Of a stretch of 64,000 nucleotides of DNA, positions 13,475 through 16,999 are shown piece by piece (position 1 is the first letter of the stretch; every line of letters starts with the position of its first letter). This DNA comes from Copromyces sp. CBS 386.78 (lineage: Eukaryota; Ascomycota; Sordariomycetes; Sordariales; Sordariaceae). The position numbers and the translations under genes were made by a program. Location: positions 62,001-126,000 of the forward strand of contig MU839081.1 in the NCBI GenBank assembly GCA_030685235.1. Reading direction: 5' to 3'. The notes under the pieces were generated by a model that saw nothing but the letters and a program-made list of their open reading frames with translations, did no database searches and was not told the DNA's origin.

Positions 13475-15117
13475 ATGGACAACAACCAGTACGGGTTAGT
13501 CTTCCTGGCACGCCGAATACGACGACATCAACGTGCCGTGTTTCTTACTGACATCGGTTACTGTCTAGATACGGCGGAAGAGACCCTTCCTTTGACCAAC
13601 AGGATGGTGCCGCTGGTGCTTATTCCCCGCTTGGCGGAAGGGACCAGTCTCCCGCACCCTATGCCGGAGGAAATTATGGTGGTGAGCTCCAGATGAGATA
13701 ACTGTCGAAAAAAAAATCACACAGCCAGATTGACCATTGCATCTCATCAGGAAACACAATGGAGATGAGCTCAATCAACAACGGAGGCTCCTTTGGCGGT
13801 GACCCGACTGCAATCCTGAACGAGTGCCGAGACATCGACAATGGAATCGAGCAGATCGAGGGAAATCTACGGGAGCTGCGAAGACTGCAGGACCGCTGCC
13901 TCGCCGAGGCTGATTCATCCGCGAGCTCATCGAGCCGGCAACTAGATGCACTCAACACCGAGACCATGGCCTTGTACCGCACCATAACCGATCGCGTCCG
14001 CAAAATCAAGTCGAGCCCCGAGGGCCGCCAGCCCCGAAACCAGGCCCAGGTTGGCCGCGTTGACCGTCGATTGCGACAAGCGATTCAGGACTACCAGGGC
14101 GTCGAGTCCTCATTCCGCAAGAGGATGCAGGACCAGATGGCCCGCCAGTACCGCATTGTGCGCCCCGATGCCAGCGAAGACGAGGTCCGGGCCGCTGTGG
14201 AGGACACTACCGGAAACTCGCAGGTCTTCCAGCAAGCCTTGATGCAAAACAACCGCGTAGGCGAGGCGAGAGCTGTGCTCAGTGCTGTCCAGGACCGCCA
14301 CAAGGCTTTGCAGAGGATTGAGCAGCAAATGGTCGAGTTGGCGCAGCTGTTTGAGCAGTTGAACACGTTGATTGTGGAACAGGACGTCAAGATCCAGGCC
14401 ATTGAGCAGACGAGTGAGGAGGTGGTCGACAATCTCGATAAGGGCAATGAGGAGATTGCAGTGGCAGTTCAGACGGCGCGGGCCACTCGCAAGAAGAAGT
14501 GGATGTGCTTGGGTATCTGCGGTAAGTATTTGCCGATGCAGTGGCCTTCCAGTTCGGTGCTCCAAAAAAAACCATGACTAACCTTTCTCCCTTTAGTGGC
14601 CATTATCGTGGTGATCGTTATCATCGTGGTGGTCTATGTCGTCGTTACCCACCCTCCTGGCGGCGGAAGTAAATCGGAGGAGAATACGAAGCGCGGTCTT
14701 CTGGGACGAAGCGTCAACGATGATTTGCAAATGAACAACGCCCGAGCTATCCAAGTTGCCGCTCCCATGGCTGGCCCTATCTCTCGTATCCACGGACAGT
14801 CAAAGAACGTTGTTCCCGATAGTGCCGACCCGGAGTCTCTGGCCAAGAGGCTCTCGCCGGAACTCCTCAACCGCATCACTTCGCCCTACAAAAAAGCATC
14901 ATCTCAACCAGCGACAAAGGCAAAACGATTTGTGATCACGGACGAAATCCTCGAGTTTATGGAACAGAACAACGCGGTGGCTTCACGCGGTCCCCAAAGG
15001 GCCGGAAAGCGCTTCGTCATCACGGACGAAATTCTGGAAAGCATGAGAGGCGGCAAAGTGGCAGACCACAAACAGTTCGTTCCGGGTCATCATAACGAGG
15101 CGAAGGATGACGAATGA
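13475..15117 (+). CDS. Plasma-membrane Qa-SNARE (Sso1/syntaxin type) with long post-anchor tail
   Basis: Four exons, 13475-13494, 13569-13681, 13751-14521 and 14597-15117, give 474 residues and all phases agree. The N-terminus MDNNQYGYGGRD is Tyr/Gly-rich. An Habc three-helix region follows, then a SNARE motif with the zero-layer Gln in IVEQDVKI (about Q255). The basic RKKK precedes one membrane span (about 295-318, nearly all Ile/Val). It should drive exocytic fusion at the plasma membrane. Sso1/syntaxin-1 proteins normally stop a few residues after the anchor. Here 156 more residues continue on the luminal/extracellular side. They hold Lys-Arg pairs at 333-334, 385-386, 411-412 and 439-440, RIHGQS at 365-370, and two KRFVITDEILExM copies. 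The start could instead be ATG at 13296, spliced to a 5-nt exon at 13490-13494 (MSYGYGG). Confidence 0.93.
14785..14802 (+). other. RIHGQS: pheromone-core-like hexapeptide in the syntaxin tail
   Basis: These 18 bases read RIHGQS in the syntaxin frame, flanked by Ser and Lys. The alpha-type pheromone of Neurospora and Sordaria is QWCRIHGQSCW, so the six central residues match while both Trp-Cys flanks are missing. Whether this is shared ancestry or chance cannot be told from the sequence. Confidence 0.6.
14923..14961 (+). repeat. Tail peptide repeat, copy 1 (KRFVITDEILEFM)
   Basis: First of two 13-residue copies in the syntaxin tail. It begins at a Lys-Arg pair, a possible Kex2 cleavage site. 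The second copy differs at one residue only, but several codons differ at synonymous positions. Confidence 0.85.
15007..15045 (+). repeat. Tail peptide repeat, copy 2 (KRFVITDEILESM)
   Basis: Second copy, 28 residues after the first and again starting with Lys-Arg. Different codons for the same residues (TTT/TTC, GTG/GTC, ATC/ATT, CTC/CTG, GAG/GAA) show it is not a recent DNA duplication. Confidence 0.85.
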
Positions 15118-15859: not shown

Positions 15860-16999
15860 TCAATCTTGAACACCCATATCGTCACCTTCTCCCACCTCGG
15901 CAAGAAGTGCATCGCCTTTCCCGCCACCGCGGCCATCACCCTGGTCAAGGTCGAAGTCTGGGTGATCCATAGAGGATATACGCCGTTGCCTCTCTGAACC
16001 TGCCTCGGCAACCCTTTTTAGCACTCCTATTCGCCTCTCAAAGTCTTGCAGTAGAGTCGGGTATTCTTCAGGTGCAGGGGCCGCCGTCGCAGTTTGCTTG
16101 CCCTTGCCCGTCAGAGAAGAGTGCAGATCACCTTCTGGAGTGGACAGCATTTTCCCGCCGCTGCCCAAACACGACGATGACAACGACCCTGACGATGACG
16201 ACGACGACGAAGGCTCAATGGCTACGCCTTCGATCTTGAGCATCAACGGACCACTATGTAGACTAGGCGATGAAGCCGCAAAGACCCCCCCTGCGGAATT
16301 GGCACTGCCACTGTTGGCTTGATCTTCCATCCGCATCACTTGTGCCGAGACGACTGCCCAGTCGGGAGACAGGCTACTTGCCCATGCCACTTGGAGCCCA
16401 CTGCCGGTCGAGGAGGGCGCCACATCAAGAACCACGGCGCGATCTCTCGACTCCTTGCTGTAGAGTTTTTCATCGTTGTCTGGACTTGGTGTGGAATTCT
16501 GTTCGATTCCTCCACGGTGATGGTACGCTAGTGCGGCGGTGAGGATGTCGGGGTCGTCGTCGGCAAACACATAGTGGACGGTTGGATGATGGATGGTCTG
16601 GCGCTGGGAGGAGTGGGTGCTGGAAGAAACAAGGGTAAAGAGGGGAGAGAACGATGGCTGGGACCCGCCACCTTGTTCTTCCCCCTCCCCTGCTTCTCGA
16701 TGATGATGTTGTTTTTGTTGTTTTTGTTGTTGTTGTTGTTGTTGTTGTTGTTGCTGCTGGCCGATCCCCAGTAACGTGTGCTCCTCAATGCTAGGTGGTG
16801 GTTGAGGAGACGGGGTGTGGGATTGTGCTGACGACAGGCGACGACTTTGAGGTTGTAGCTGGTCTGCCTGTAGGTCGTGCTCTCGCCGTAAACTGGAGCG
16901 ACTTGTCCGACTCGCGACAGATGGTCGGGGACTTGAGGAGGTGAAGTAACGGGCGGCGGCGGCGGAGCCCGGTCGGTTGAAGGAATCTGGTTCGGTCAT
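15860..16999 (-). CDS. Low-complexity polyQ protein, function unknown
   Basis: A single uninterrupted frame of 379 residues. The N-terminus is Ser/Arg-rich, followed by a polyGln run (about residues 80-95) with His after it. A more ordered segment then reads TVHYVFADDDPDILTAALAYH, continues with AVVLDVAPSSTGSGLQVAWASSLSPDWAV, and is followed by LMLKIEGVAIEP. A Ser-rich region and a helical piece, PTLLQDFERRIGVLKRVAEAG, come next, with an acidic, Gly-rich C-terminus. The ordered segment looks like a conserved filamentous-fungal domain, but I cannot name it. There are no membrane segments or signal peptide. The long ORF in GC-rich sequence and domain-like order argue that it is real. Confidence 0.72.
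   Translation of the reverse strand: MTEPDSFNRPGSAAAARYFTSSSPRPSVASRTSRSSLRREHDLQADQLQPQSRRLSSAQSHTPSPQPPPSIEEHTLLGIGQQQQQQQQQQQQKQQKQHHHREAGEGEEQGGGSQPSFSPLFTLVSSSTHSSQRQTIHHPTVHYVFADDDPDILTAALAYHHRGGIEQNSTPSPDNDEKLYSKESRDRAVVLDVAPSSTGSGLQVAWASSLSPDWAVVSAQVMRMEDQANSGSANSAGGVFAASSPSLHSGPLMLKIEGVAIEPSSSSSSSGSLSSSCLGSGGKMLSTPEGDLHSSLTGKGKQTATAAPAPEEYPTLLQDFERRIGVLKRVAEAGSERQRRISSMDHPDFDLDQGDGRGGGKGDALLAEVGEGDDMGVQD
16709..16759 (-). repeat. CAA/CAG trinucleotide repeat encoding polyGln
   Basis: Plus strand reads a TTG/TTT/CTG triplet run. On the minus strand this gives the Gln stretch (with some Lys) of the polyQ protein, and its length is likely to vary between strains. Confidence 0.85.

Follow-up and report, generated by a model that had tools for sequence, protein, structure and literature searches.

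SNAREs are studied as fusion machines that face the cytosol, and their ends on the far side of the membrane are usually considered unimportant. The window, that is the whole stretch of 64,000 nucleotides of Copromyces sp. CBS 386.78 DNA that was analysed, contains a secretory syntaxin gene whose frame runs on well behind the membrane anchor, and this raises the question of what such an extension might be. A sequence-only reading had described the syntaxin, its intact SNARE motif, the anchor and an in-frame tail of 156 residues, all of which are confirmed by the gene model and Pfam: four exons on the plus strand (13475-15117) constitute the gene of a 474-aa secretory Qa-SNARE (syntaxin), which forms a single frame after removal of introns 13495-13568, 13682-13750 and 14522-14596, with the stop codon at 15115-15117. 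The parts of the gene are as follows; P0001 is the Neurospora tetraspora orthologue.

13475..13494, plus strand: exon 1, start codon at 13475 (gene model; P0001 has the same start region)
13569..13681, plus strand: exon 2 (gene model)
13751..14521, plus strand: exon 3, with the syntaxin domain and the larger part of the SNARE motif (gene model, Pfam)
14522..14596, plus strand: last intron, GT...AG (sequence and gene model)
14597..15117, plus strand: exon 4, membrane anchor core, tail and stop codon (gene model)

The syntaxin domain (PF00804) matches residues 66-208 with 32.8 bits against a cut-off of 26.7, and the SNARE motif (PF05739) residues 259-309 with 46 bits against 26.8; the anchor run, residues 302-318, lies directly behind the SNARE motif, as in a Qa-SNARE. 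In the AlphaFold model of P0001 the helix is unbroken over 217-319, and the closest proteins with a solved structure are yeast Sso1 and Sso2. Since anchor core and tail are contained in one exon, an isoform bearing the anchor should also have the tail, unless exon 4 includes an undetected intron. Converging with the SNARE gene from the minus strand is an open frame (15860-16999, 379 aa) that contains a long Gln tract.

The tail comprises four Lys-Arg pairs, at residues 333, 385, 411 and 439, and the unit KRFVITDEILExM occurs in it twice, as had been read from the letters:

14647..15114, plus strand: tail beyond the anchor, 156 residues, 319-474 (gene model, sequence comparison)
14689..14694, plus strand: KR site 1, residues 333-334, present in nearly every relative sampled
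14845..14850, plus strand: KR site 2, residues 385-386, retained in P0001 and in P0002 (Sordaria brevicollis)
14923..14961, plus strand: repeat unit 1, KRFVITDEILEFM, with KR site 3 (residues 411-412)
15007..15045, plus strand: repeat unit 2, KRFVITDEILESM, with KR site 4 (residues 439-440)

The unit occurs in two copies only, 28 residues apart, which is the spacing of KR sites 3 and 4. The codons of the copies had been said to differ synonymously, and over 13 codons there are indeed 8 synonymous and 2 non-synonymous differences (7.7 synonymous and 31.3 non-synonymous sites); because eight of the ten differences are synonymous, the duplication behind the pair is not recent and the residues have been kept. 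No second copy of the tail was found elsewhere in the 49.8 Mb assembly, and the tail matches no Pfam family; a known domain was rejected on this ground and because the sole PDB match was meaningless (E 0.48). In the AlphaFold model of P0001 (mean pLDDT 65.5) the tail is mostly disordered, with short helices at both repeats and at 346-349. Four or more KR pairs were obtained in 101 of 20000 shuffles of the tail composition; taken alone, the number in the window is thus only moderately unusual, and the weight of the argument rests on comparative evidence.

For this comparison, a whole-protein search, of which the best 120 of 951 relatives were listed, was joined with a search using a profile of 12 relatives, mostly Sordariales, of which the best 120 of 696 were listed, 31 of them new; the 152 rows, including the window, were reduced to 146 (145 listed relatives and the window) by removing six without an intact anchor. 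P0001, the closest among the matches listed, is 93% identical over the whole protein and 97% over the 316 columns without the tail, and P0002 is 92% identical; all four KR and both repeats are common to these two annotated proteins. Conservation had been proposed as a check, and the tail, the KR sites and the peptide units are retained in Sordaria and Neurospora, and a KR within 35 residues of the anchor is found in 139 of the 146 rows, where shuffled tails give 21 on average and never more than 35 (2000 trials). After removal of similar tails, the first set of listed relatives still has a KR near the anchor in 75 of 76 cases, with 11.2 expected. Four rows have only RR at site 1, and three have neither pair, namely P0105 and P0119 (two Colletotrichum, with KAR) and P0158, the end of which looks like intron read-through. 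In an alignment of 50 chosen relatives R334 belongs to the protein columns that never vary, and K333 is conserved to at least 90%. Ahead of site 1 lies an Asn- and Gly-rich linker of 5 to 34 residues in the listed rows, a 4-fold to 7-fold variation in length, which indicates that the site, and not a structure, is what is kept. A chance feature or a local curiosity was rejected, the same tail features being present across the listed relatives, and the finding is broader than the sequence of the window alone could reveal. Within Neurospora and Sordaria the stretch between the repeats is 87-93% identical and the repeats 92-100%, which is only mildly supportive of constraint. In three relatives (P0096, P0117 and P0165) the gene model fuses the tailed SNARE to a PF01875 domain, which is probably a neighbouring gene in those genomes.

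The conserved pair resembles a kexin site in several respects. In 115 rows KR is over-represented (142 against 37.5 expected) and RK under-represented (10 against 37.9), while RR is not enriched (72 against 61.2) and KK is slightly enriched (33 against 20.2). The residue following site 1 is Ser in 52 of 88 non-redundant cases. Kexin is not known to cut ahead of Pro, and Pro never follows KR (0/198), though it makes up 6.8% of the tail residues. A single gene with a P domain was identified in the genome. Its frames, read by eye, contain a catalytic part of subtilisin type and, at the C-terminus, an anchor; judged from these frames it is a kexin-type gene, with the layout of Kex2.

Farther from the anchor, a second feature recurs. 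Arg stands before 47 of 48 distal [FYW]-V motifs, where shuffled tails give 0.9 on average and at most 5; it is part of KR or RR in 34 of the 47 and single in 13. These R-[FYW]-V motifs are spread over 35 rows, or 20 once similar tails are removed, including rows named Sordariales, Coniochaeta, Sporothrix, Gaeumannomyces and Pyricularia. Compared in this way, the FVITDEILE pair is the form that a broader R-[FYW]-V unit takes in Neurospora and Sordaria. Internal repeats occur in ten tails and in none of 2920 shuffled ones, and in nine of the ten the repeat period equals some distance between dibasic sites. They form four sets:

FVITDEILE units: Copromyces window, Neurospora and Sordaria
SLDLDADTLQKIQDAIV-like units: Cercophora scortea and Podospora appendiculata
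LDIENLAFDQNR-like units: Cercophora newfieldiana, Podospora aff. communis and two further relatives
four RFVVDPKFRDGFKGGMGGQLAQR-like units: P0155, of 615 residues

The R-F-V unit is expanded in the FVITDEILE and P0155 sets, and other segments in the other two. In a tree built from the protein parts before the tail, with its root placed at the midpoint, the four sets lie in four separate clades, beside unrepeated rows, some of the joins being modestly supported. P0155, which has the longest array, departs from the dibasic phasing, and most of its units are preceded by a single Arg. Another tail end, R-x-H-x-P, is found in 50 of 146 rows, always in the last 14 residues, for example in Fusarium, Cordyceps and Beauveria. 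The pieces behind site 1 vary between lineages, so that they include no single conserved ligand. In P0146, P0148 and P0153 most repeat units start with KR-EA, RR-EA or KR-EP, as does one unit of P0090, which brings to mind yeast alpha factor and its dipeptide-trimmed starts.

The tail is confined to one of two secretory syntaxins. The second one in the genome, L005, has 336 aa and ends seven residues after the anchor (placed as in P0122), and its 18 listed relatives end 3 to 20 residues after it, in contrast to 49 to 324 in most rows of the tailed branch; in one of them, P0123, a KR stands at the very end, with no residue behind. A tail in all secretory syntaxins was rejected, since L005 and these 18 relatives have no long one. 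At L005:1702-2025 the frame remains open for 107 codons past the TAG stop (NPGGGG...AGEKRFYGGGW), and it is at that stop that the models for P0121 and P0122, both close relatives, end differently. In the tree, 16 of the 19 untailed rows are one group with full support. Pycnora, Cyphellophora and Seirophora, the remaining three, which belong to three non-Sordariomycete classes (Candelariomycetes, Eurotiomycetes and Lecanoromycetes), have no long tail but are placed on the tailed side, as long branches beside Ceratocystis with modest support (80/86). On this thin sampling outside the class, the tail may have arisen within or near Sordariomycetes.

BbSso2a has 411 aa and BbSso1 326 aa in PMC11204939, and FocSso1 has 333 aa in PMC10950013; the tailed Beauveria row, P0063, has the same length as BbSso2a, and FocSso1 is close to the 336 aa of L005. 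From these protein lengths the tailed gene is probably of the FocSso2 type. The tailed rows P0027 and P0143 are named nsyn1, which conflicts with the equation of nsyn1 with Sso1 in PMC10950013, so that the nsyn1/nsyn2 assignment is tentative. According to that paper, FocSso1/FocSso2 of Fusarium oxysporum pair with Sec9 and Snc1 in plasma-membrane fusion, and FocSso2 with GFP at its N-terminus is seen in old hyphal cells, at their plasma membrane, but not at growing tips.

Taken together, these findings suggest that the gene probably encodes a secretory Qa-SNARE joined through the anchor to a peptide precursor that Kex2 processes. Tail-anchored proteins, with which the tailed SNARE shares one anchor toward the C-terminus and cytosolic N-terminal domains, have at most about 30 residues behind the anchor by the definition in PMC8644595; with 156 residues the tailed SNARE is outside this class and, given this length, is probably inserted during translation. 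From known biology, the anchor would place the tail in the secretory lumen, and kexin, in the late Golgi, would cut behind KR; cleavage is predicted with high likelihood. Cutting would leave an ordinary short-tailed t-SNARE and free lumenal pieces, predicted as GLLG...LAKR, LSPE...KAKR, FVITDEILEFM...AGKR and FVITDEILESM...DDE, which would exit the cell at the fusion sites of the SNARE's own carriers; if the localization of FocSso2 in PMC10950013 holds for this gene, they might come mainly from older hyphae. Outside the cell the pieces may act as signal, wall-active or defence peptides, the least certain step, although putative functional released peptides are still reasonably probable.

The claim of a SNARE that is also a peptide precursor is partly supported, by the architecture, by conservation and by the dibasic phasing of repeats in further lineages, the latter being what a peptide precursor predicts. 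At the level of sequence, it is favoured by the KR near the anchor behind a variable linker, the enrichment specific to KR, the Ser and the lack of Pro after KR, the distal R-[FYW]-V, the repeats in four clades, phased in nine of the ten tails, and the mostly synonymous differences between the repeat copies of the Copromyces tail; a kexin-type gene in the genome and a second secretory syntaxin without a tail are further points in its favour. Against it speak the 13 distal motifs with a single Arg, P0155 with its array off dibasic phasing, the three rows without KR/RR at site 1 and the four with RR only, the lineage-variable pieces, the near-equal retention, in Neurospora and Sordaria, of the repeats and the stretch between them, and P0139, whose tail stops without a distal unit; moreover, the roles of tail and SNARE are inseparable in published knock-outs.

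A removable propeptide would account for part of the same evidence: kexin would remove the tail, whose task, for example forcing insertion during translation or holding the SNARE inactive until the late Golgi, would be finished before the cut, the released pieces being waste. Site 1 alone is near-universal (139 of 146 listed rows), the pieces behind it differ between lineages, and the tail exceeds the limit of tail-anchored proteins given in PMC8644595, all of which suits this explanation; it leaves unexplained the distal R-[FYW]-V unit, the C-terminal R-x-H-x-P and the dibasic-phased repeats, and we regard it as unlikely. The tail might instead stay on the SNARE uncut and bind the wall, a lipid or an outside partner, with the basic pairs as contact residues; cleavage is a prediction, and some segments are strongly conserved, QSKIV for one (31 of 146 rows; at most 1 after shuffling). 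This is very improbable, given that the pair is specifically KR and not RK, that Pro never follows it, that KR stands at variable distance in a flexible linker and that it delimits repeats.

That the protein ends at the anchor through an annotation artefact, or that the tail is a neutral, unconstrained read-on with chance KR, is scarcely credible. The KR number of the window would fit it, being only moderately unusual by itself; one exon holding anchor core and tail, the same layout in the gene models of many genomes and the retention of site 1 argue against it. In addition, no intron interrupts anchor and tail in 32 of 37 listed relatives from contigs below 5 kb, as expected of contigs derived from transcripts, though intron loss could give the same picture.

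If the precursor reading is correct, an exocytic SNARE is itself a peptide precursor that connects secretion with peptides outside the cell, and a group of fungal peptides passed over by surveys based on signal peptides comes into view; the sampled relatives with the near-universal putative cut site include Fusarium, Colletotrichum, Pyricularia, Beauveria and Neurospora. It also predicts that any C-terminal tag on the tailed SNARE would be shed; Sso fusions, which could be of the tailed or the untailed branch alike, are described as N-terminal in the reports consulted, explicitly so for ChSso2. A wider view is offered tentatively, as possible rather than probable: in Sordariomycetes one of the two plasma-membrane syntaxins would double as a prohormone-like precursor, whose peptides report or tune exocytosis. 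Every SNARE molecule made would then free peptides en route to the membrane, and the peptide part would diversify via duplication of units while the SNARE part remains constant.

Such a SNARE had been thought undescribed, and no description of one with a cleavable far-side peptide tail was found in the literature searched, mostly outside subscription papers. The fungal SNARE phylogeny of PMC2639358 describes two diverged secretory syntaxins, with no mention of such a tail in its parts on these proteins. Like the Sso1/Sso2 Qa-SNAREs, the tailed protein has syntaxin and SNARE domains and a C-terminal anchor. With Kex2-processed repeat proteins (KEPs), which include the precursors of alpha-type pheromones and ustiloxins, the tails share repeat units separated by KR or RR and expanded independently in different lineages, and the Copromyces tail does contain repeated units bounded by Kex2-type sites, in two copies. 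The N-terminus of the 474-aa syntaxin, MDNNQYGYGGRDPSFDQQ, is hydrophilic and the hydrophobic run found is the anchor near residue 300, so that reading the sequence, rather than running a signal-peptide program, reveals no N-terminal ER signal peptide like that of KEPs. In two KEP surveys (PMC6339444, PMC7329392) a signal peptide is required, and PMC6339444 also drops predicted membrane proteins; by the first requirement the tailed SNARE would be missed. KEPs as surveyed there carry an N-terminal signal peptide, whereas here the units hang beyond a SNARE anchor. SNAREs and kexin-processed precursors are both known; what is new is their fusion, with a site in nearly all the relatives sampled.
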